64,000 nt of DNA. Source: Pseudolysobacter antarcticus. Lineage in GTDB: Bacteria; Pseudomonadota; Gammaproteobacteria; Xanthomonadales; Rhodanobacteraceae. The stretch covers positions 4,588,001 to 4,652,000 of the forward strand of contig NZ_CP035704.1 of assembly GCF_004168365.1 (NCBI RefSeq). Direction: 5' to 3'. The notes beneath the pieces were generated by a model. It did not search any database and was not told the DNA's origin. It saw nothing but the letters and a program-made list of their open reading frames with translations. Below are positions 5,280 through 47,929 of this stretch, one piece after another. The position numbers and the translations under genes were made by a program. Each line of letters begins with the position of its first letter. Position 1 is the stretch's first letter.

Positions 5280-5560
5280 CGATACTGCTCCCCATGCATT
5301 CCGGCCCGTTTACAGACGTGCCCTTGATTGTCCGCGACAGCTTAGCGTTTCGCCTTGCCCGGAACACAAAAGTGCATACGTATTCATTGAAGTGGCCGCG
5401 ATGCTCGAACGTGGACTTACCGAAAGCAATGGCAGATAGTTGCGTCTCGATTCGGAAACGGCCTTTCGTAACAGCTCAGCTTTATTTGTCGGATGCGTGC
5501 GCAGGTATAACTGGCGATCGCTGCACTGGGGGTTTTTACCGATAGACCATCTGCAAAATA

Positions 5561-5701
5561 TTAGGACGTCTAAATCGGAGAGCCTGATCTGTCTTTCCCG
5601 AAAAACAAGCGCGGATATAATTGTTCAATATGCATCACGCTGCCGTCGTTGACTTTAGACCGCGCGACCGGAAGACTCACCCCATTTCTAATTCTAGTTA
5701 G
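5561..5701 (+). other. attI-like element A (integron primary site without an adjacent integrase)
   Basis: This stretch begins with a palindrome (TTAGGACGTCTAAAT, 5561) and ends with a simple site in which an inverted core (TTTCTAAT) faces GTTAGAA at 5697. It matches the element at 40244-40383: same palindrome type at the left, TTGACTTTAGACC 48 bases before the terminal GTTAG in both, and CATTTCTAAT-N-CTAGTTAG at the right end. Total spacing is 136 versus 135 bases. Each copy is followed at once by a small gene and then an attC site, which is how attI sits in an integron. No intI gene lies in the window, so attI identity is inference. Confidence 0.6.
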
Positions 5702-5714
5702 AAGGCCAAGCGAA

Positions 5715-5972
5715 ATGTCTGTCGAGCATTGGATTGTTGGTCCCGAACATGACGACTCGCTTTTCGTGCGCTTGGGTCACGCACTCAGATCTCTAGGTTA
5801 CAAACTCGGCCCAGAGTGGTCAGGTGTCGGGGGCTCGCAAGAAATCTCCAACTGGGAGGTATCGAGTGAGAACGGTACACTTGTCGTCGAGTCCGAGACG
5901 TTTATTGGGCTGTCTGTCTTAGGCGCTGCCAAGTTGGTTCAACAACTGCGGTTACAGTTCGAGGCGGCTTAG
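5715..5972 (+). CDS. Cassette-borne small protein, unknown function
   Basis: 85 residues from the ATG at 5715 (MSVEHWIVGPEHDD); GAAGG 9 bases upstream can serve as ribosome binding site. A longer frame starting at TTG 5649 would run through the attI-like site and is less likely. I do not recognise the family. It is acidic, has no signal peptide or membrane segment, and reads as a small alpha/beta domain. It sits between the attI-like element and an attC, so it is the gene of the first cassette of this array. Confidence 0.6.
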   Translation: MSVEHWIVGPEHDDSLFVRLGHALRSLGYKLGPEWSGVGGSQEISNWEVSSENGTLVVESETFIGLSVLGAAKLVQQLRLQFEAA

Positions 5973-5974
5973 CC

Positions 5975-6030
5975 TTCTAACAATTCATTCAAGCGGACGT
6001 GCCTTTGGCACGCCGCTTAATTCAGGCGTT
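5975..6030 (+). other. attC site 1, interrupted by IS at its right core
   Basis: Left core TTCTAAC (5975), a GCGGACG...CGCCGCT stem with a short GTGCC/GGCAC tip, and right core GCGTT ending at 6030. It begins three bases after the stop of the cassette gene, the standard attC position. The bases after GTT that would complete GTTRRRY are found beyond the IS as GTTAGGG (7781), so the IS entered the right core site. Confidence 0.85.
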
Positions 6031-7780
6031 GAGGCTGTAGAAAAACCCCTTTTCGAGCACGCGCGATGATCTTCGCGGCGATATGAGAACGCTGCATGTC
6101 AGGGTGTTTGTCTGCCGACGCGCTCGTGGTGCGCGTCGGCATCCGGGCCATAGCTGCCTGATGCGTAAAACCCTCGAAGCGCGCGGGCTTTTCCGTTGCC
6201 TTCATGCTGCTTTTCGGTAGTTCGCCCACTTCTCGATGTTGTGCACCAGAGCGAACAGCTTCCATTGACCATCCACCTTTGTCTGGCCACGCAGGGTGAA
6301 GCGGTTGAGCCGTTTGTTGTGGCGCAGGTTACCGAACACCGGCTCGACCGTGGCGAAGCGTCTTCCATACTGTTCGCGGCCTTCGTCACTGTCGATGCGT
6401 TCGCGCATGCGTTGCGTGTGCGTGGCGATGGCTTTGCGCGTGAGCACGGCGACTTGCCGTGCCGGTGTCGTCTCGGGTTTGCGCAGGCATTGCGCTCGTC
6501 GTGTGCAGTGCTCGCACGTCGCTGCCGGCGCGCGGAACTTGATGGCGGCGTAACTACCGATGGTGCAGTCCTTGCCATTGCGATACAGCCGTTGACCGGC
6601 CGGGCAGATGGCGTGCGAATGATCTGCTGCGATGATGAAATCCTCGCTGCCAAACAGGCGCGGTTTCTTTGCTCGACGTGATTTGTCGTAAAGCGGATCG
6701 GGCTTGCTCGTGTGTTTGCCCTGCTCGGCAAACCGTTCGTCGCGACGGCGCATCTGGTTGTCGGCAATCAATGCATCGATACCGCGTTCGGCCAGTGCGG
6801 CGAGGTTGGCTTCGCAGTGATAACCGGCATCGGCGGTGATCAGCGTGGTGGCGTTGCGTTGATAGGCGCAGGCATCCAGCACCGGCAGCAGCAGCTCTTG
6901 TTCCGATCCGGTGCCATGCGCCGAGGCCTCGACAATGACCTGATGTGCAGCATCGACGACAGCGACGCCGCAGTAGCCTTGGATCACCCCTTTGTCGGTA
7001 GCCAGCTTGGCCGAGGCGTTGTCGGTGCGGTTGGATTTACGGATCGATCCGCGCGTACCGGCGCGGTCGGTGGGGTTCTCGATTAGCCACGTGCGCAGCT
7101 TCGCTGCTTCCTTCGTCAGGCGCTCGATGCGTGCGGTCGCCTTCGCATCCATGACGGTCTCGGCGCTGCCGGCATCGTTGGCCTGATGACGGTCGAGCAT
7201 GGTCTTGGCGGCACGCTCCATCTTCTGTGCTTGCGCGAGAAACTCCGCGCGTGTGCCGGAGCGGTGCTTCGAGGCATTCGACGGCAGTTTGACGCCGTCG
7301 ATGGCGAACATGGTTCGCCCGATCAGACCTTCCTTGCCGAGCAGCGTCAGTACCTGACCGAACACCGACGCGATCGCATCCCGCGAGCGGCTGACGAAGT
7401 CCGCGATCGTGGTGAAGTGCGGCTTGGCATCGCCCGTGATCGCGATGAACACAACATTGTCGCGGCACGCGCGCTCGATCGCACGTGAGCTGATCATGCC
7501 TTGCGAGTAGGCCAACAGCACTGCCTTGAGCAACATCGCCGGCGCATGCGCCGACGCACCGACCTCATCGTTGCGGTAGTGCGCATCGAACAGCGATAAG
7601 TCCAGCGCGTCGACGACGTGATGCACGGCGTGGGCGAACGAGCCCGGTAGCAACTGCGCTTCCAGATCCACCGGCAACAGCCGCGGACTCATGTCCACCA
7701 CTTTGTAGCGCGCCATCACCGACTCCCTTGATCATCTCGCTTCTTGCGAGCAAGATCGGGGCCAGTTTTTCTACAGCTTC
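6031..7780 (-). mobile_element. IS1182-type insertion sequence, copy 1 (1750 bp)
   Basis: The ends are GAGGCTGTAGAAAAAC (left) and the complement of GAAGCTGTAGAAAAAC (right): a 16-bp inverted repeat with one mismatch. GTT stands on both outer sides (6028-6030 and 7781-7783), consistent with a 3-bp target duplication. It carries one minus-strand transposase gene. Copy 2 (8205-9954) has the same length and appears identical, including the non-coding ends, so the duplication is recent. Confidence 0.9.
6202..7719 (-). CDS. IS1182 family transposase (copy 1)
   Basis: 505 residues. An N-terminal DUF772-like region (about residues 15-110) is followed by a DDE nuclease domain with FAIDGVKLPS, VVDAAHQVIVEAS and LITADAGYHCEANL as the probable acidic blocks. 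A Cys cluster CEHCTRRAQC and the terminal EPVFGNLRHNKRLNRF are typical of the IS1182 group. The start at the double ATG 7719 lies 61 bases inside the right IS end. It should cut and join this IS; the gene is intact. Confidence 0.92.
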   Translation of the reverse strand: MMARYKVVDMSPRLLPVDLEAQLLPGSFAHAVHHVVDALDLSLFDAHYRNDEVGASAHAPAMLLKAVLLAYSQGMISSRAIERACRDNVVFIAITGDAKPHFTTIADFVSRSRDAIASVFGQVLTLLGKEGLIGRTMFAIDGVKLPSNASKHRSGTRAEFLAQAQKMERAAKTMLDRHQANDAGSAETVMDAKATARIERLTKEAAKLRTWLIENPTDRAGTRGSIRKSNRTDNASAKLATDKGVIQGYCGVAVVDAAHQVIVEASAHGTGSEQELLLPVLDACAYQRNATTLITADAGYHCEANLAALAERGIDALIADNQMRRRDERFAEQGKHTSKPDPLYDKSRRAKKPRLFGSEDFIIAADHSHAICPAGQRLYRNGKDCTIGSYAAIKFRAPAATCEHCTRRAQCLRKPETTPARQVAVLTRKAIATHTQRMRERIDSDEGREQYGRRFATVEPVFGNLRHNKRLNRFTLRGQTKVDGQWKLFALVHNIEKWANYRKAA

Positions 7781-7792
7781 GTTAGGGGTCGC

Positions 7793-8158
7793 ATGAAAGT
7801 ATTCGCTCTACTTGTGGCTTGTGCGGTGGCACTGAGCGGGTGCGCTCGGTCGGTCAACTTCACTCTTCCAAATGGCCCGCTTAGCCTGTCGTTTACGGTA
7901 AACGGTGCTCCCACCAAACAGTGCGCTATCAGCCAAAACTCAGAGCAATACAAGGCTCTTTCCGCTTGGCTCCGCACGCATCAAGATGGCTGGCAGAGCA
8001 GCGTCGTCACTTACATACCCAGCGTCGTAGTCACCGGCGATGGCTTCAATCTCAACTTCCTGCACTCGGCTGCCATACTCAACCATGCAAAAAGCCAATT
8101 CACTCATCAGGTGTCGCCAAACGATTACGTGTTTCTTGTCTGCGCTGGCAACCCCTAA
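7793..8158 (+). CDS. Cassette-borne small lipoprotein, unknown function
   Basis: 121 residues starting 10 bases after the right IS end. The start has a lipoprotein signal with lipobox ALSGC (Cys16), so it is probably exported and lipidated. The remainder is a small soluble beta-rich domain with two further Cys (in KQCAISQ and FLVCAGNP) that could form a disulfide. I do not recognise the family. An attC overlaps its stop codon, so it is the gene of cassette 2, now boxed in by two direct IS copies. Confidence 0.7.
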   Translation: MKVFALLVACAVALSGCARSVNFTLPNGPLSLSFTVNGAPTKQCAISQNSEQYKALSAWLRTHQDGWQSSVVTYIPSVVVTGDGFNLNFLHSAAILNHAKSQFTHQVSPNDYVFLVCAGNP

Positions 8159-8204
8159 CCAGTCATCCAAGCGGACGGCTCCGCCGCCGCTTAATTCCAG
8201 CGTT
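8153..8204 (+). other. attC site 2, interrupted by IS at its right core
   Basis: Left core CCCTAAC overlaps the stop of the lipoprotein gene. The stem is GCGGACGG/CCGCCGC and the right core GCGTT ends at 8204, where IS copy 2 begins. The missing half reappears as GTTACAT at 9955. The inner spacers (ATCCAAGCGGACGG, CTTAATTCCAGCG) are close to attC 1. Confidence 0.82.
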
Positions 8205-9954
8205 GAGGCTGTAGAAAAACCCCTTTTCGAGCACGCGCGATGATCTTCGCGGCGATATGAGAACGCTGCATGTCAGGGTGTTTGTCTGCCGACGCGCTCG
8301 TGGTGCGCGTCGGCATCCGGGCCATAGCTGCCTGATGCGTAAAACCCTCGAAGCGCGCGGGCTTTTCCGTTGCCTTCATGCTGCTTTTCGGTAGTTCGCC
8401 CACTTCTCGATGTTGTGCACCAGAGCGAACAGCTTCCATTGACCATCCACCTTTGTCTGGCCACGCAGGGTGAAGCGGTTGAGCCGTTTGTTGTGGCGCA
8501 GGTTACCGAACACCGGCTCGACCGTGGCGAAGCGTCTTCCATACTGTTCGCGGCCTTCGTCACTGTCGATGCGTTCGCGCATGCGTTGCGTGTGCGTGGC
8601 GATGGCTTTGCGCGTGAGCACGGCGACTTGCCGTGCCGGTGTCGTCTCGGGTTTGCGCAGGCATTGCGCTCGTCGTGTGCAGTGCTCGCACGTCGCTGCC
8701 GGCGCGCGGAACTTGATGGCGGCGTAACTACCGATGGTGCAGTCCTTGCCATTGCGATACAGCCGTTGACCGGCCGGGCAGATGGCGTGCGAATGATCTG
8801 CTGCGATGATGAAATCCTCGCTGCCAAACAGGCGCGGTTTCTTTGCTCGACGTGATTTGTCGTAAAGCGGATCGGGCTTGCTCGTGTGTTTGCCCTGCTC
8901 GGCAAACCGTTCGTCGCGACGGCGCATCTGGTTGTCGGCAATCAATGCATCGATACCGCGTTCGGCCAGTGCGGCGAGGTTGGCTTCGCAGTGATAACCG
9001 GCATCGGCGGTGATCAGCGTGGTGGCGTTGCGTTGATAGGCGCAGGCATCCAGCACCGGCAGCAGCAGCTCTTGTTCCGATCCGGTGCCATGCGCCGAGG
9101 CCTCGACAATGACCTGATGTGCAGCATCGACGACAGCGACGCCGCAGTAGCCTTGGATCACCCCTTTGTCGGTAGCCAGCTTGGCCGAGGCGTTGTCGGT
9201 GCGGTTGGATTTACGGATCGATCCGCGCGTACCGGCGCGGTCGGTGGGGTTCTCGATTAGCCACGTGCGCAGCTTCGCTGCTTCCTTCGTCAGGCGCTCG
9301 ATGCGTGCGGTCGCCTTCGCATCCATGACGGTCTCGGCGCTGCCGGCATCGTTGGCCTGATGACGGTCGAGCATGGTCTTGGCGGCACGCTCCATCTTCT
9401 GTGCTTGCGCGAGAAACTCCGCGCGTGTGCCGGAGCGGTGCTTCGAGGCATTCGACGGCAGTTTGACGCCGTCGATGGCGAACATGGTTCGCCCGATCAG
9501 ACCTTCCTTGCCGAGCAGCGTCAGTACCTGACCGAACACCGACGCGATCGCATCCCGCGAGCGGCTGACGAAGTCCGCGATCGTGGTGAAGTGCGGCTTG
9601 GCATCGCCCGTGATCGCGATGAACACAACATTGTCGCGGCACGCGCGCTCGATCGCACGTGAGCTGATCATGCCTTGCGAGTAGGCCAACAGCACTGCCT
9701 TGAGCAACATCGCCGGCGCATGCGCCGACGCACCGACCTCATCGTTGCGGTAGTGCGCATCGAACAGCGATAAGTCCAGCGCGTCGACGACGTGATGCAC
9801 GGCGTGGGCGAACGAGCCCGGTAGCAACTGCGCTTCCAGATCCACCGGCAACAGCCGCGGACTCATGTCCACCACTTTGTAGCGCGCCATCACCGACTCC
9901 CTTGATCATCTCGCTTCTTGCGAGCAAGATCGGGGCCAGTTTTTCTACAGCTTC
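8205..9954 (-). mobile_element. IS1182-type insertion sequence, copy 2 (1750 bp)
   Basis: Same ends, length and orientation as copy 1, again with GTT on both sides (8202-8204, 9955-9957). Together the two direct copies flank cassette 2 and could act as a composite unit or recombine to delete it. Confidence 0.9.
8376..9893 (-). CDS. IS1182 family transposase (copy 2)
   Basis: 505 residues, identical over its whole length to the transposase at 6202-7719, with the same motifs and the same position inside the element. Intact. Confidence 0.92.
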   Translation of the reverse strand: MMARYKVVDMSPRLLPVDLEAQLLPGSFAHAVHHVVDALDLSLFDAHYRNDEVGASAHAPAMLLKAVLLAYSQGMISSRAIERACRDNVVFIAITGDAKPHFTTIADFVSRSRDAIASVFGQVLTLLGKEGLIGRTMFAIDGVKLPSNASKHRSGTRAEFLAQAQKMERAAKTMLDRHQANDAGSAETVMDAKATARIERLTKEAAKLRTWLIENPTDRAGTRGSIRKSNRTDNASAKLATDKGVIQGYCGVAVVDAAHQVIVEASAHGTGSEQELLLPVLDACAYQRNATTLITADAGYHCEANLAALAERGIDALIADNQMRRRDERFAEQGKHTSKPDPLYDKSRRAKKPRLFGSEDFIIAADHSHAICPAGQRLYRNGKDCTIGSYAAIKFRAPAATCEHCTRRAQCLRKPETTPARQVAVLTRKAIATHTQRMRERIDSDEGREQYGRRFATVEPVFGNLRHNKRLNRFTLRGQTKVDGQWKLFALVHNIEKWANYRKAA

Positions 9955-40197: not shown

Positions 40198-40243
40198 TCT
40201 TATCTTCGTCGTGTAATAGTTACGGAGAAGCGTCATCGAAAAT

Positions 40244-40383
40244 TTAGGCGTCCTAAATTTTTCAAAAAATGAAAAATAACCCAAGATACGAGCTCTTAAC
40301 TTGCATATTTGATTTTCGCGCGCCAGCCTTTTGACTTTAGACCAATTGGGCACGAAACTCGGCGCATTTCTAATACTAGTTAG
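40244..40383 (+). other. attI-like element B
   Basis: Second copy of the element at 5561-5701. It has a palindrome at the left (ATTTAGGCGTCCTAAAT), TTGACTTTAGACC at 40331, and the simple site CTAATACTAGTTAGGC at the right (GTTAGGC at 40379, a perfect core). Between the conserved blocks the copies differ, so constraint acts on the blocks. It stands 46 bases after the GT2 gene and opens the cassette island. Confidence 0.62.
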
Positions 40384-40450
40384 GCGCTCGTCCGTCTGAA
40401 TCGAGAATGTTAGATTTTATCCACATAAGCCAACTGTAGTCTTGAACAAT

Positions 40451-40951
40451 ATGGACATGAACATTCGCGCTAAAAAGTACTTGGAGGCCTTCTTCTCTAA
40501 TGAAGAGATTCCCGGTGGTCTTTCATACCGAACCGCGCTCAACCAAATAGATTTAGATGGTTCCTGGGAAAGTCTCGATAGAGTCGATTATTTGCTCGAT
40601 CAACTTCGTATCAAGACAAACCCAATATTTGAGGTCTTTCTTAACGAATCTGCTAAACAGCAGTTTCTATATTTGTTGTGCTTTTATGTTGGACACGTAA
40701 TTTCAAATTTCTCTGACAAGCCCGTTCGGTGGTTGTCATATCAGGACATGATTCGTGAGATTCCTGACAATGGAAAGATGTTTCCTGATTGCTTCCAGAC
40801 CTCGGTGACATGCATCACTTCTGTGAGCTTCTTTGCTCCACTGCGGTCAATAACTTGCAGACTATTCGAAGAGTTGGGTGAACACACAACAAAAAGCGTT
40901 AGAGCCAGTGCTGAGGGCAATTGCAAAAGGCCCATTCGATCTAACAAATAG
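40451..40951 (+). CDS. Cassette-borne protein, unknown function
   Basis: 166 residues from ATG 40451 (TTG 40442 and ATG 40457 are alternatives). AT-richer than the pigment genes. It has an amphipathic helical start, one weakly hydrophobic stretch (QFLYLLCFYVGHVISNF) and several Cys. No family recognised. Between attI-like B and an attC, so it is the first cassette of this array. Confidence 0.65.
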   Translation: MDMNIRAKKYLEAFFSNEEIPGGLSYRTALNQIDLDGSWESLDRVDYLLDQLRIKTNPIFEVFLNESAKQQFLYLLCFYVGHVISNFSDKPVRWLSYQDMIREIPDNGKMFPDCFQTSVTCITSVSFFAPLRSITCRLFEELGEHTTKSVRASAEGNCKRPIRSNK

Positions 40952-40980
40952 ATGGACGTCTGCTGTAATCCCGTAACCGC

Positions 40981-41046
40981 GCCTAACCAGCGGTTCAAGC
41001 CGACCGGCCATAGAAGCCGGCCGGCGGCTTAACCTAGGCGTTAGCC
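40981..41046 (+). other. attC site 3
   Basis: Left core GCCTAAC and right core GTTAGCC, with TTCAAGCCGACCGGC / GCCGGCCGGCGGCTTAA as stem and a TAGAA-type loop. 66 bp, complete. Confidence 0.92.
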
Positions 41047-41054
41047 CTTAAGAC

Positions 41055-41810
41055 ATGCTTACAAGCGAAGAACTACAACACGGATATTGGGGTTCGAGGC
41101 GGCGGGCCGTGCGCCTTCCTGTCCCATCAGTCACTCATCCGGATGAGTTTACGGGTGCAGACGCACTGACTCTTTCGTGCACCCAAACCAACCTGCCTGC
41201 CGGTGAGCAACGCAAACTAGTCAAAGCCTGGTGCGCTTTGCTTCCGACGCTGCAGCTAAAATCCTTGGTCTTTTCATCAAAGGTGAGCCAAGATCTCTTT
41301 GATGCTGCCACGCAGATCAAAGGTCTCGAAGCACTCAATGTTAAATGGAGTTCCATCAAATCCATTGCTTCTGTGACGGGCTGCAGGTCTCTTGCTGTAC
41401 TGGATATAGGCAGTAGTCCGTCACTGACTGGCTTGAAGTACCTTGAGCAACTTCCGAAGCTCAGAGTTTTACGAGTCGAGAATGTAAAAGAAGCTCAAGA
41501 TCTAACGTTCGCAAACAGCCTCACTGGCCTTGAGGAGTTCGGCGTATGCGGCAGCATGGGGGCTAACCAAAAAATAGACAGCCTCTGGCCACTGAAGGAT
41601 CTGCAGAGGCTTGAGCTTTTGTGGCTAACCAGCGCAAAGGTTCTTAACGGCGGCCTTCTCCCGTTGCACGGACTCCGTCGGTTAACAACCCTCAGATGTG
41701 CATTCAATTTTTCCGCCTCGGAGTTTGCTGCCATACGCGATGCGGTTCCGTCGCTCAAATTCGGCAGTCCTTTTGAGCCTGATCTCATCAGGCAGTACTG
41801 TAAGGGCTAA
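41055..41810 (+). CDS. Cassette-borne leucine-rich-repeat-like protein
   Basis: 251 residues without signal peptide. From residue 70 on, units of about 22-24 residues repeat (LKSLVFSS, LEALNVKW, LAVLDIGSS, LRVLRVEN, LEEFGVCG, LERLELLWL-like, LTTLRCAF), a solenoid of LRR type. Such proteins bind other proteins. The gene begins eight bases after attC 3 and ends inside attC 4, so it is a clean cassette. LRR proteins are an unusual cassette load; a role in recognition or in toxin immunity is possible but unproven. Confidence 0.75.
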   Translation: MLTSEELQHGYWGSRRRAVRLPVPSVTHPDEFTGADALTLSCTQTNLPAGEQRKLVKAWCALLPTLQLKSLVFSSKVSQDLFDAATQIKGLEALNVKWSSIKSIASVTGCRSLAVLDIGSSPSLTGLKYLEQLPKLRVLRVENVKEAQDLTFANSLTGLEEFGVCGSMGANQKIDSLWPLKDLQRLELLWLTSAKVLNGGLLPLHGLRRLTTLRCAFNFSASEFAAIRDAVPSLKFGSPFEPDLIRQYCKG

Positions 41811-41916
41811 CAATTCGTTCAAGGCGGACGGGCATCAGGGCCGCGCAGACCCTGGCGTTTTACTGTAAGGCCTGCGCGGCCCCGATGTAAGCCGCCGCTC
41901 AACTCCAGCGTTGGGC
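41805..41916 (+). other. attC site 4 (long form)
   Basis: Left core GGCTAAC, right core GTTGGGC (perfect GTTRRRY), 112 bp. Outer stem TTCAAGGCGGACGGG / CCGCCGCTCAA; inner long stem GGGCCGCGCAG / CTGCGCGGCCC around a GCGTTTTACTGTAA loop. Larger than its neighbours in this array. Confidence 0.9.
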
Positions 41917-41938
41917 GAAAAATATTTGAGGTTCATTA

Positions 41939-42556
41939 ATGCTTAAAACGCTAGTTGCGATCACGATGATGTTTTCCGCTTCGATATGCTTAGCCGATCA
42001 AGCTTGTGAAAATCTTGCAAAGAAGGCTTTGGAATCTAAAGGAGATCAATCAGACTCGTGGATAGGATCGATTTGCAAATCGAAACCAAATGAGACCAGA
42101 AAATCCTTCCTGGTGATGGATCACCAGATATATCTGATCGATATAAACAGTGGACATATTTTAAGCCAAGGAGAACTAGGAGATACTTCTTTCAATATCG
42201 AGTCGATTGATACAGGGCGATATTGGTTGACCCCAAAAGTAAGGGCCTTTGGCATACGCTCTTCTGAATACAGGCCTCACTATCATGCAGGAGAGACTCT
42301 TTATTCATTAAATTTGTATGTTACTGAAGGAAACAGAATTCGACCCATCTTGGAAAAACTTGCCATTGGTTATAGTGCAAGCAGCGAAGAGTGTAATGAA
42401 AAAAATGAATGCGAACAAAATCAGACTAATCAACTAATAACAGTTGATATTGCAAAAACACGTCACAAAGGTTTTGCAGATTTAATTGTAGATGGAAAAA
42501 TTCTGAGTTATGACGGTAGTCGGTATGTTGTTCCTGATGATTTATTGCAGCAGTGA
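41939..42556 (+). CDS. Cassette-borne exported protein, unknown function
   Basis: 205 residues with a signal peptide (MLKTLVAITMMFSASICLA). AT-rich compared with the chromosome. The mature part is soluble with paired Cys (ACENLA, SICKSK, EECNEKNECEQ) that may form disulfides. Family not recognised. Third cassette of array B; its attC is missing or collapsed into the IS remnant behind it. Confidence 0.65.
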   Translation: MLKTLVAITMMFSASICLADQACENLAKKALESKGDQSDSWIGSICKSKPNETRKSFLVMDHQIYLIDINSGHILSQGELGDTSFNIESIDTGRYWLTPKVRAFGIRSSEYRPHYHAGETLYSLNLYVTEGNRIRPILEKLAIGYSASSEECNEKNECEQNQTNQLITVDIAKTRHKGFADLIVDGKILSYDGSRYVVPDDLLQQ

Positions 42557-42594
42557 TGTAACGAACAATTGCCCAACTCATCATTCGAGAAGGA

Positions 42595-42870
42595 TAGTTA
42601 GCCCATTTCTCGATGTTGTGCACGAGGGCGAACAGCTTCGATTGACAGTCGACTTTGCTCTGGCCGCGCAGCGTGAAGCGGTTGAGGCGTTTATTGTGAC
42701 GTAGGTTGCCGAACACGGGTCGACGGTGGCGAAGCGCCGTGCGTAATTCGCTCGGCCTTCGGCGCTGTCGACGCGTTCGCACATGCGGTGCGTGTGCGTG
42801 TGCGTGTGTGTGTGCGTGTGCGTGACGATCGCCTTGTGCGTGCGCCATCGCCAACGCCCTTGATCCTTTC
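42595..42870 (-). pseudogene. IS1182-type remnant (transposase C-terminus)
   Basis: CCCATTTCTCGATGTTGTGC and the following 150 bases match the end of the transposase genes at 6.2 and 8.4 kb with many changes, then decay. It follows the third cassette gene where an attC would stand. A short palindrome GCCCAAC...GTTAGCC (42571-42603) at the joint may be what is left of that attC. From here to 43056 there is no gene except the repeats listed. Confidence 0.75.
42788..42825. repeat. GTGTGC/GT microsatellite inside the IS remnant
   Basis: About 38 bases of alternating GTGTGC and GT units. The intact IS copies have only one GCGTGTGCGTG at this place, so the tract grew after the element died. Confidence 0.85.
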
Positions 42871-42987
42871 GATTCTTGCGAGCAAGCGCGTAGGTCGGAA
42901 AAGCACAGCGCCTTCCGACGATTGACAGCGAGCGGAGCCCCGTATGCGACGATCGTAATTCTCGTGACGCGGATTTATCCTGCAATT

Positions 42988-43020
42988 GTCGGATAACGCG
43001 GCTGCGCCGCTCATCCGACC
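42988..43020. repeat. REP-like palindrome, copy 1
   Basis: 33 bases with arms GTCGGATAACGCGGC / GCCGCTCATCCGACC, identical to the copy at 47715-47747. A related short palindrome (GTCGGAAAAG ... CTTCCGAC) lies at about 42893-42920. Confidence 0.85.
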
Positions 43021-43056
43021 TACGAACTCTACCCATTCCTCACCAAAGACACCCTG

Positions 43057-43458
43057 ATGAACGAAACCACGGGTCTCAGCTACTTGCAGCTCGCGCTGCG
43101 TGTTCTTGGTCTTGTTCTGGTTTTTGGCGTCTATCCACTCACCATCCTTTGGCCCAGTGGCTGGGCGTGGAGCGCGGCGCAATCGCACTATCTGCAGATG
43201 ATCATCGGGATCTACGCGACGCTGGGCGTGTTCCTCTTTATCGCGGCGAAAGACCCGGCGCGGCACCTGAGCCTCATCTCTTTCACGATCTGGTCGAGCG
43301 TGGTGCATGGCCTCATCATGGCGGTGCAGGCGCTGAGCAACCCGGAACATATCGGCCACTTGTACGGCGATGTGCTGGCTCTTTTCCTCATCGCGGTGGT
43401 GCTTGCCGTTCTCTGTCCCGCCGCGGCTCGTTTCGATCTCGGCAATCGTTCGGCCTGA
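43057..43458 (+). CDS. Small four-TM membrane protein (possibly DUF6632)
   Basis: 133 residues with four hydrophobic segments (about 9-31, 45-65, 75-93, 104-123) and short charged loops (AAKDPARHLS). The pattern fits the DUF6632-type group, but I am not certain. Function unknown. GC-rich like the chromosome, so it is probably not a recent cassette. Preceded by a REP-like palindrome. Confidence 0.65.
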   Translation: MNETTGLSYLQLALRVLGLVLVFGVYPLTILWPSGWAWSAAQSHYLQMIIGIYATLGVFLFIAAKDPARHLSLISFTIWSSVVHGLIMAVQALSNPEHIGHLYGDVLALFLIAVVLAVLCPAAARFDLGNRSA

Positions 43459-43547
43459 TTCTGCGTAGAAGCGGACGCGTTAGCGCGATCCGTTAAAATC
43501 AAATGTCAGCTTGCTCCGTCCACGGTCACTCACGCAGATCTCAACCC

Positions 43548-43919
43548 ATGTCGAAAATACTTCGCTACGCTCTGTTCGCCATCAGCATCGCAGCTAGCGT
43601 GGTGGCAAGCGCCAATCCGGATCGGTTTCCTGCGCTTGAAAAACTTCCCGCGGAGCCGCGCGCGGCTGTTGCCACCTTGATGGATTGGCAGCGAACGCTG
43701 GTCGATCTCACCGTTGCCGAAATTGAAGCCAGATTCGGCAAGCCGGACAAGACCAAGAACGTCGGCACCAACGCCGCAAGCGGCAAACCGATGCAGATGA
43801 TCTCCTATCGTCTTTCTCGCCGGAGCGAACTGCAGATCACGATTCACGAGGGCGAGGTGATAGCGGTCGCCACGATTTTGCTGCCGAGCGGCAACGAGAG
43901 CGGCCCGATCGAAGACTAG
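43548..43919 (+). CDS. Small exported protein, unknown function
   Basis: 123 residues from ATG 43548, which gives a signal peptide (ILRYALFAISIAASVVASA); a 15-codon extension to 43503 lacks sense. The mature 100 residues have EIEARFGKPDKTKNVG and ELQITIHEGEVIAVATI, like small periplasmic SmpA/BamE-type folds (the FGKP turn), but this is only suggestive. Confidence 0.6.
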   Translation: MSKILRYALFAISIAASVVASANPDRFPALEKLPAEPRAAVATLMDWQRTLVDLTVAEIEARFGKPDKTKNVGTNAASGKPMQMISYRLSRRSELQITIHEGEVIAVATILLPSGNESGPIED

Positions 43920-43994
43920 GCTGGGTCCAAACGTCAACAAACTTTTTTTTAACCTCGTTAGCCGCCGCCAGGCATTCCTGTTTTTGGAAATTAG

Positions 43995-44702
43995 ATGATT
44001 AAAAAAGCCCATAAAAAAATTGGGATCATTGGCGGATTAAGTCCAGAATCGACCGTCAGCTATTACTCACATATCACCCGATCCTATGTAGCCAGATTCG
44101 GCGACTGTGGCTATCCGGAGATCATTATTTATAGCGTCAACCTTGAGCAATACCATGCTTGGCGCGCTCAAGGCCGTTGGGATTTGATCGCGAAAGATCT
44201 CGCAAATATCGCCAATAAGCTTAAAGATGCGGGTGCTGATTTAGGGGTGATCGCCACAAACACCATGCATAAAGTATTTGACCAAGTGCAGGATGGGACA
44301 GATCTGCCGCTTTTGCATATTCTGGAACCAACAATAGCCGAGATACGCAAAGCGGGCCTGTTGCGGGTTGGTCTGCTCGGGACACAATTCACAATGGCCG
44401 AACAGTTTTACAAAAACCATCTGTCTTCCGCAGGAATTTCAACAGTCGTACCAACACTAGCTAATCAAGCGATAGTCCATGACATTATTGTGAAAGAACT
44501 GGTGAGAGGAATTTTTACCGAGCAGTCTAGGCAGTCCTATTTGGAGATCATCAACCAGCTCGTGGCTGATGGCGCCGATGGCGTCATTCTCGGTTGTACG
44601 GAAATACCGCTGTTGATTGATCAGAAGAGTTGCGAAGTGCCGCTATTTGATACCGCGACACTGCACGCTGAGGCCGCTCTCCAAGCAGCGATCAGCGTCT
44701 GA
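43995..44702 (+). CDS. Aspartate/glutamate racemase family protein (YgeA-like)
   Basis: 235 residues. IGIIGGLSPESTVSYY and VIATNTMHKVFD, then LGCTEIPLLI. Most relatives use two Cys; here the first block has Thr88 and the second Cys201, the Thr/Cys pair reported for E. coli YgeA (L-Asp/Glu racemase). It probably interconverts amino-acid enantiomers in the cytoplasm. An attC overlaps its stop and GTTAGCC stands before it (43959), so it is a cassette gene, AT-richer than the flanks. Confidence 0.85.
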   Translation: MIKKAHKKIGIIGGLSPESTVSYYSHITRSYVARFGDCGYPEIIIYSVNLEQYHAWRAQGRWDLIAKDLANIANKLKDAGADLGVIATNTMHKVFDQVQDGTDLPLLHILEPTIAEIRKAGLLRVGLLGTQFTMAEQFYKNHLSSAGISTVVPTLANQAIVHDIIVKELVRGIFTEQSRQSYLEIINQLVADGADGVILGCTEIPLLIDQKSCEVPLFDTATLHAEAALQAAISV

Positions 44703-44795
44703 CAATTCATTCAAGCCGAAGCGATGGATCCTTCGATTGTGCGTCGTCACGACTCGCGTGTAAGCTTTGGCTGACTATTCGCTCAAGCGTTCGCC
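44697..44795 (+). other. attC site 5
   Basis: Left core GTCTGAC overlapping the racemase stop, CAATTCATTCAAGCCGAAGC paired with GCTTTGGCTGACTATTCGC, right core GTTCGCC at 44789. 99 bp. Both cores deviate by a base from consensus, but the inner spacer matches attC 1 and 4 closely. Confidence 0.75.
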
Positions 44796-44820
44796 CCCTC
44801 AGTCACAACCCTGAAATTCC

Positions 44821-45471
44821 ATGTACGTACCCAAGCATCACGAAGAAACAGACGCTGCTGTCCTGCATTCGCTGATCAAGTCCCATCCGCTGGGTGCGTG
44901 GGTGACCCAAGCTGATGGAGAACTTCTCGCCAACCACATCCCATTTCTCCTCGATTCTTCTCGCGGGGAACATGGCACGCTAATCGGGCATGTCGCCCGC
45001 AGCAATCGTGTCTGGCAGTCCTTCTCGACCACGGTCAATTCCGTAGTCATCTTCCAAGGTTCCGAGGCTTACATCACGCCATCCTGGTATCCAAGCAAGC
45101 ACGAGCATGGCAAGGCCGTCCCTACATGGAACTATGTCGTCGTTCATGCACACGGGGTGCCGCGCACCATCGAAGACCGTGACTGGTTGCTCCAACACGT
45201 CACCCAGCTCAGTAACACGCATGAAGCCGGCCGAGCGCTTCCGTGGAAGGTATCCGACGCCCCGCAAGACTTCATCGAACAACTGCTGAACGCGATCGTT
45301 GGCATTGAAATCCCGATCGCAAAGCTGGTCGGAAAGTGGAAGGTCAGTCAGAACCGGCCAGAACCCGACAAGCTCGGTGTCGTCGCCGGATTGCTCGCCC
45401 GCGACGATGCGCAGTCAGTGGGAATGGCGTCCTTGGTGAACGAGCATGTCTCGCGCGTCGCAGGCACCTGA
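44821..45471 (+). CDS. PaiB-like FMN-binding protein
   Basis: 216 residues, full length for the PaiB/FMN-binding negative regulator family: MYVPKHHEETD, PLGAWVTQADGELLANHIPFLL, GSEAYITPSWYPSKHEHGKAVPTWNY and LVGKWKVSQNRP. Flavin-split-barrel protein; PaiB of Bacillus affects protease genes and sporulation, other members are simply flavin binders. It starts 26 bases after attC 5, so it may be a cassette too, though no attC follows. The next 139 bases hold nothing I can name. Confidence 0.88.
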   Translation: MYVPKHHEETDAAVLHSLIKSHPLGAWVTQADGELLANHIPFLLDSSRGEHGTLIGHVARSNRVWQSFSTTVNSVVIFQGSEAYITPSWYPSKHEHGKAVPTWNYVVVHAHGVPRTIEDRDWLLQHVTQLSNTHEAGRALPWKVSDAPQDFIEQLLNAIVGIEIPIAKLVGKWKVSQNRPEPDKLGVVAGLLARDDAQSVGMASLVNEHVSRVAGT

Positions 45472-45610
45472 CCCCTCCATCGAACGGATGCCTTTCAGGA
45501 AGCATCACTTGCGTCGAGCCGCGGCTCAACTCGAACTTTAAGACCACACTGGGCTTGAACGCCAAGCAATCATTCAATATGCCGATACGCAGATCGCACT
45601 GGAGCAGTTT

Positions 45611-47597: not shown

Positions 47598-47714
47598 GCT
47601 GCACCGCGTAGATGCCGGCAAATCGCCACCTCAAAAGGTGGTTATGCGCTAAGCCTTGCGGCGATAGAACGACGAACAGCCGAGACGCGATGGTGGCAAT
47701 TAACCTTAGTGAAT

Positions 47715-47747
47715 GTCGGATAACGCGGCTGCGCCGCTCATCCGACC
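47715..47747. repeat. REP-like palindrome, copy 2
   Basis: 33-base palindrome identical to 42988-43020. It stands in the 332-base gap between the GST and nucleotidyltransferase genes, which otherwise shows no gene. Confidence 0.85.
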
Positions 47748-47929
47748 CACTGATCTGGATAAAATGGTCGCCCTGTGCGAAATCCAGGGCCGGAAGCTAT
47801 ATCTTGATCGAACCAAATCTCCTTCAAATCAGATTACCGACTAGCAGGGTGATCTGGCATGCGTATAAGCAAATAACATGCAAGACGATGGCCGTTAAAT
47901 AGCTCCGCACCATAATTCAGGCATGCTCA

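Follow-up and report, generated by a model that had tools for sequence, protein, structure and literature searches.

An integron is usually described as a single platform, with one integrase gene (intI), one attI site and one cassette array. The locus studied here raises the question of what an attI-like element does when it heads a cassette array with no integrase gene beside it. It lies in a 64,000-nucleotide stretch of the Pseudolysobacter antarcticus genome (NZ_CP035704.1, positions 4,588,001 to 4,652,000), referred to here as the window. An initial annotation placed two such elements at positions 5561 and 40244, and both are present there. As annotated, 48 nt separate the start of TTGACTTTAGACC from the G of the closing GTTAG in each copy, the right end is a shared CTAAT-N-CTAGTTAG, and the palindrome reported at the left was located in both (ATTAGGACGTCTAAA and TTTAGGCGTCCTAAA; Table 1). 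The pattern TTTAGACCN{25,40}CTAGTTAG has two matches in the 4.73-Mb genome, both of them the window copies, and none in a reversed control.

The annotation further held that the element is present twice and that no integrase gene adjoins it. No intI was detected in the upstream flank of either window copy, but the count did not hold: further full copies were found beyond the window pair, bringing the genome to five full copies and one truncated copy. Copies were found by DNA search, and a sequence-only model was then built from four of them.

Table 1. Coordinates of attI copies, cassettes and insertion sequences. Plain numbers are window positions; C2 marks genome coordinates.
Feature	Position	Strand	Remark
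Orphan attI copy 1 (palindrome, putative cassette promoter, core)	5548..5701	+	Model R1 match; genome C2:4593548-4593702
Palindrome ATTAGGACGTCTAAA, putative distal accessory site	5560..5574	+	Exact pattern only at the five attI copies
TTGACT-N17-AAGACT, putative cassette promoter	5649..5677	+	Overlaps proximal TTTAGAC motif; promoter role inferred
attI simple site CTAATTCTAGTTAG	5688..5701	+	Crossover expected at GTTAG; sequence read
First cassette, array 1	5702..6032	+	ORF 5715-5972 (85 aa, no Pfam match at 0.01); attC 5976-6032
IS copy 1, DDE_Tnp_1_6/DUF772 transposase	6031..7780	-	Inserted in GTT of attC
Second cassette, array 1	7781..8206	+	ORF 7793-8158; attC 8154-8206
IS copy 2	8205..9954	-	Likewise in GTT of an attC
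Orphan attI copy 2	40231..40383	+	Genome C2:4628231-4628385
Palindrome TTTAGGCGTCCTAAA of copy 2	40243..40257	+	Exact-pattern search
TTGACT-N17-GAAACT, putative cassette promoter, with TTTAGACC motif	40331..40359	+	Promoter role inferred
attI simple site CTAATACTAGTTAG	40370..40383	+	Sequence read
First cassette, array 2	40384..41044	+	ORF 40442-40951; attC 40982-41044
Second cassette, array 2	41045..41914	+	ORF 41055-41810 (weak LRR); attC 41806-41914, found by motif, missed by scanner
Further genes, probably cassettes, array 2	41915..45540	+	3' boundary inferred
DUF6632 gene, array 2	43057-43458
Asp/Glu racemase gene, array 2	43995-44702
FMN_bind_2 gene, array 2	44821-45471
Full attI copy	C2:2793252		DNA/model search
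Full attI copy	C2:4107781		DNA/model search
Full attI copy	C2:868615	-	Outside the model's training set; found at E 6.4e-11
Truncated sixth attI copy (L014/L022)	C2:4487796-4487889		Without core; likeness stops just after TTGACTTTAGACCG

Across the five full copies, the element consists of conserved blocks held at fixed distances. All five end in the simple site CTAnTnCTAGTTAG, and the cassettes start after its core. The palindrome begins 87 to 88 nt before TTGACT, 53 nt run from the start of TTGACT to the last base of GTTAG, and TTGACT-N17-xAxACT is kept throughout. In ungapped comparison, mean pairwise identity is 0.77 from TTGACT to the core, 0.54 in the palindrome block, 0.30 over the 71 nt between palindrome and TTGACT, and 0.27 after the core; one-base shifts between copies depress the two upstream values, but the middle is near random. 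A TTTAGAMC block lies at -42 and the palindrome at about -136 from the core. Conserved at fixed positions, the palindrome and the upstream blocks may be accessory repeats for integrase binding; TTGACT-N17-xAxACT is a plausible cassette promoter.

Because TTGACT-N17-xAxACT resembles a promoter and the palindrome an operator, the element could instead have nothing to do with an integrase and serve as a conserved promoter or a binding site for a regulator, or mark one end of a small transposon. The exact palindrome pattern WTTAGGNNNYCTAAA argues against this: it occurs at five places in the genome, all of them copies of the element. Allowing one mismatch added further places, 17 rows in all versus 59 for a reversed control. 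Because the exact pattern is confined to the attI copies, we did not take the palindrome for a LexA/SOS site or a general operator. The exact core pattern had no match in the viral collection and one, in an Arcanobacterium metagenome-assembled genome, in an 84,980-species collection that may omit records of this or very near genomes; we judged that match to be chance, as our own rough estimate was about two expected. Moreover, the right edge of every full copy is the start of a cassette, and the copy linked to intI has the same anatomy as the others. An IS end or MITE would have cassette-less copies in unrelated places; all five full copies head cassettes, so that what the annotation had named as evidence against attI (many cassette-less copies, or an IS end) did not turn up in this genome. 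Overall, we regard an origin unrelated to integrase as very improbable.

The check for a copy next to intI supports the attI reading. One of the five full copies (locus L003) adjoins an intact intI and sits between that gene, on the minus strand, and a cassette array, the position expected of attI; the other four do not lie between an intI and a first cassette. The L003 integrase matches TIGR02249 at 469.7 bits (cut-off 265) over profile positions 1-315 of 315, and its translation includes HVLRHSF and LGHQDVSTTQIYTH, motifs that we assign to the tyrosine-recombinase catalytic region. The stretch that L003 shares with the other copies sets in near position 1406, roughly where intI presumably starts (its start codon reads CAT on the opposite strand). 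An intI search at 1e-60 gave a single match in the genome, and this locus is 0.48 to 0.52 Mb away from the window copies. Upstream of the four orphan copies (1.6 to 4.3 kb each) there was no significant intI match (best E 0.029), and no intI relic was detected beside them at 1e-3. The annotation's assignment to attI is therefore supported by the same element standing between intI and its array, with attC-bearing cassettes after GTTAG, and it is also backed by one class of intI-linked sites in relatives (type A, below), in which a TTAGRC-type motif sits equally far (-41/-42) from the core. Collectively, these data support reading the element as a full-length attI that includes a putative cassette promoter and is apparently placed at several chromosomal positions without intI.

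A different account of cassettes away from an integrase gene is that they landed at chance secondary sites of the attG type, with the likeness to attI coincidental. Insertion at sites that are neither attC nor attI has been reported, according to excerpts of two papers (cited in PMC12444791; named in PMC12901181). The orphan sites, however, have the full attI anatomy, an architecture much longer than a core, with shared blocks more than 100 nt upstream, and in relatives their positions are common to several species. We give the attG account almost no weight. A mobile-element reading was also rejected, in light of the lack of intI relics beside the orphan copies in this genome and of the core pattern in the viral collection.

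The arrays behind the two window copies each contain at least two attC sites (starting at 5976 and 8154, and at 40982 and 41806) with no upstream intI match, and so qualify as CALINs, clusters of attC sites lacking intI. Further attC-like pieces lie near 44695 and 45517 in array 2. Elsewhere in the genome, attC sites occur from 5356 onward in L015 and at 8671 and 9455 in L016; behind the 868-kb copy (L021), the first attC-like hairpin seen by eye is at about 885-985, and the scanner finds another at 199. These arrays differ from CALINs as such in that they begin at a recognizable attI with conserved upstream blocks. With attI as the array head, insertion at the head, beyond mere excision, would be possible in trans. 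The L003 locus has the features of a sedentary chromosomal integron, namely a TIGR02249 integrase, an attI with a GTTAG core and attC cassettes starting after the core; what differs is the presence of extra attI sites far from intI, each heading its own array.

We propose, with a probability of roughly 0.7, that the single intact integrase serves the dispersed attI sites in trans, so that one recombinase would supply several ports for capture and expression. The integrase would be produced from its own distant locus and would bind the orphan sites through the core, the TTTAGAMC block and the distal palindrome. Circular cassettes would then be inserted at GTTAG of an orphan attI, and the putative promoter at each port would express the first cassette. 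The orphan sites themselves would descend from copies of the intI-attI platform in which intI was later lost.

To place the element among relatives, we searched with three models. The model of this genome's own type (R1) matched 1 of 147 genomes under strict filters, namely this one, and none of the 146 others, so that the own sequence type looks lineage-specific. Two broader models were built from intI-linked sites of relatives, R2 for type A and R3 for type B. Type A sites carry TTAGRC-type motifs at about -128, -115, -41 and -28 from GTTAG; the positions shift by a few bases and motif variants occur. The TTTAGAMC block described above fits the -41 position of this type, and the palindrome lies near its distal pair. 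Type B (A5) is marked by TTGACG and TGAACAT and finishes in CCCCG...GGGGTCTACTAAGCGTTAG; orphan sites of this type keep the TTGACG and TGAACAT blocks. Several of the 29 intI-linked loci read in relatives fit neither type. At E ≤ 1e-4, R2 matched 53 of 398 genomes of the order and R3 matched 99 of 398, this one included. R2 had no match in this genome, its own attI copies included. The one R3 match here (E 2.2e-6) lies away from the known copies, with none in the window, L002, L003, L014-L016 or L021.

Of the matches listed (103 R2 places and the first 150 of R3), 70 adjoin an intI among the roughly 150 listed, whereas 183 sites spread over 70 genomes do not; some of these sites may adjoin an unlisted intI. 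We fetched 60 of the 183 sites from 29 genomes, preferring long contigs, together with 20 control loci. Two of the 60 (L134 and L169) have an intI match and are therefore not orphans. Sites resembling attC were found within 3.5 kb downstream in 41 of 60 (24 of 40 type A and 17 of 20 type B; 138 sites in 189,571 bp). Upstream, they were found in 2 of 60 (3 sites in 120,000 bp), and in the controls in 0 of 40 locus-strands. At the threshold used (7), the scanner gave one match in total over both strands of the 20 control loci and none in 3.5-kb control slices; it misses real sites, such as that at 41806. The remaining 19 of 60 loci had no scanner attC downstream, partly through short contigs or degenerate cores, and the core is abnormal in 6 of 60 (five not GTT and one lacking a core).

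Close to the core, orphan type A sites are as conserved as intI-linked ones. In 33 orphan and 10 intI-linked type A sites, the core-proximal columns hold 1.09 versus 1.07 bits, the core 1.22 versus 1.16 and the spacer 0.09 versus 0.13. The distal block is weaker in the orphans, at 0.39 versus 0.63 bits. The type of an orphan site also follows that of the intI-linked attI in the same genome (16 A and 5 B versus 20 A and 45 B; odds ratio 7.2, Fisher p 0.0003), in a test that takes sites as units among the R3 matches listed and in which related genomes are not independent. According to excerpts of PMC8946536, attI sites are proposed to co-evolve with integrases and non-cognate pairs are generally inefficient, which fits this matching of types. 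One genome (G312) runs opposite, with five type A orphans and an intI linked to a type B attI.

The orphan sites could, on the other hand, be relics, the remains of full integrons that lost intI and whose arrays are now frozen. In some genomes the orphan sites are only of another type than the listed intI-linked attI, consistent with such a history. An intI match at 1e-60 is present in 56 of the 70 genomes with orphan sites and absent from 14, where the sites could not now be served by an integrase of the kind searched. Furthermore, matches to the 5' part of intI occur upstream in up to 10 of 58 orphan loci of relatives (controls, 0 of 20), although the queries extended to the upstream stop, so that some of these matches may be translated attI sequence. 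The longest intI-like remnants align over 85 (L158), 47 (L156) and 44 (L154) residues. One genome (G292) has two orphan copies, L158 and L159, about 71 kb apart, which share a 255-bp unit at 96.5% identity and both have a 5'-intI match upstream; by eye, the L159 flank looks like an IS end. These matches indicate that intI loss did occur at some loci and suggest that, in at least some cases, the intI-attI platform was copied and intI then lost. The orphan copies in P. antarcticus may have arisen in the same way. At these copies no remnant of intI was detected, and their blocks and spacing are kept while the middle has been randomized, neither of which favors frozen relics.

Loci shared by species also bear on the relic account. 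Upstream flanks group many orphan sites into loci common to different species. In 35 between-genome pairs from 11 orthologous loci, per-base identity is 0.71 at -40 to -21, 0.76 at -20 to -1 and 0.91 at the five core bases, where GTT is identical by construction as the alignment anchor. Past the core it drops to 0.31 at positions 5 to 14 and 0.28 at 15 to 60. This ungapped profile left out pairs with a non-GTT core and pairs within a genome. Between +5 and +405, every one of 54 pairs falls at 53 to 64% identity; flank identity is 79% or more in 39 of them (the baseline is 70 nt long, with a median of 60).

We then searched 45 genomes of one genus (g18) with a flank sequence and obtained 24 orthologous loci, none of which has an intI match in the 2.9 to 3.6 kb covered at each. 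The core could be placed in 12 of the 24, one of them (L214) degenerate. At this 12-species locus the left flank matches in 66 of 66 pairs, and the sequence right of the core matches in 2 of 66, over 53 and 23 nt. Scanner attC sites lie within about 1.5 kb downstream in 4 of the 12 loci, and 9 of the 12 have their longest early reading frame starting 11 to 29 nt past the core. By eye, the first reading frames right of the core look different in each species (L194-L204, L214 and L217), and some resemble defense genes. Among the other 12 loci, five (L206-L209 and L212) have a different sequence in common that follows immediately on the flank, and their alignment shows no attI. An intI is present elsewhere in at least 7 of the 12 genomes, among the intI matches listed.

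Sequence after the core that differs between species, at a locus with no intI match in 24 species, implies that turnover seems to have continued without a local intI. Had intI been lost here once, long ago, that loss would be older than the differences; insertion by an integrase produced at another locus is therefore the simplest explanation, although the right side may have been replaced in other ways. The same post-core difference is seen at the other shared loci. Taken with the intact blocks of the P. antarcticus copies, these findings make frozen relics a doubtful account of the orphan sites, and we continue to favor dispersed ports served in trans. These signs of turnover come from loci of relatives, as no readable orthologue of the window sites was found in close relatives: for an empty site of copy 2, the contig of a same-genus relative ends inside the flank gene (L226), and a more distant relative (L227) has no TTAGRC motif in the first 400 nt.

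More broadly, we lean towards the view, at somewhat better than even odds, that chromosomes of this order may carry distributed integrons: inherited attI ports with their own promoters and arrays, sharing one integrase and one cassette pool. Many CALINs would then be working outlets, and ports would derive from platform copies that lost a redundant intI. According to excerpts of PMC12444791 and PMC12690207, a functional IntI can act in trans to mobilize CALIN cassettes. About half of Xanthomonas genomes have CALINs away from ilvD, at seven distinct loci in better sampled species, and their fairly conserved positions were taken in 2025 as a sign of ancestral integron activity; the excerpted text of that paper mentions no attI at them (PMC12444791). 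As CALIN calls rest on attC sites and an absent intI, an orphan attI would easily go unnoticed.

The sites also differ in form from attI sites described elsewhere. Class 1 attI1 combines a simple site with upstream integrase-binding repeats, DR1 and DR2, to which the upstream blocks here may correspond, and attIA of Vibrio cholerae is said to lack such repeats, according to the excerpts of PMC8946536. The attI described here is about 150 nt long, with its distal palindrome and proximal block, and in type A relatives the TTAGRC-type motifs form two pairs. Sites off the usual platform, attI or other, are also known from Delta-attI cassettes and attG insertions; in the former, attI lies within cassettes of mobile integrons (PMC12901181, in excerpt), whereas here it heads chromosomal arrays in many species. 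A search of listed titles and abstract openings in the open-license literature found no description of dispersed attI sites sharing one integrase. If the proposal is true, the cell could express more than one first cassette at a time, each from its own chromosomal position, arrays now classed as CALINs would possess their own head site, and the action of IntI on a distant attI in a native chromosome would become a directly testable question. The order has also been put forward as a source of many resistance cassettes (Xanthomonadales, 19 of 108 assigned; PMC8352920, in excerpt).

Several observations concern the surroundings of the sites. In relatives, type A and type B orphans in different species share upstream flanks (L144/L157/L168, L126/L154/L160 and L125/L156), as if sites had been exchanged or the place were a hot spot. 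A gene order with ilvD beside intI, as in Xanthomonas, was sought at nine loci of relatives; the reading frames, picked by length, matched GH94 in two and a TRCF-type helicase in two, with no match at 1e-10 in the other five. The best solved-structure match of the neighboring alpha-glucosidase gene is 6aav, presumably of Xanthomonas origin, and the attC type likewise points to the Xanthomonadales.

The two IS copies in array 1, which we take to be IS1182-like from their DDE_Tnp_1_6/DUF772 transposase, are 99% identical over the 300 nt compared, and GTT flanks both sides of the element. The same IS type lies near L015 positions 5438 and 12236, again in GTT of attC sites. Four such junctions read in the genome suggest attC as the target of this IS. 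Array 2 contains a short GTGCGT-type simple repeat (42785-42829), and a 37-nt hairpin-like repeat with the look of a REP element occurs at 42987-43023 and 47714-47750 of the window (97% identical) and near position 13370 of L016.
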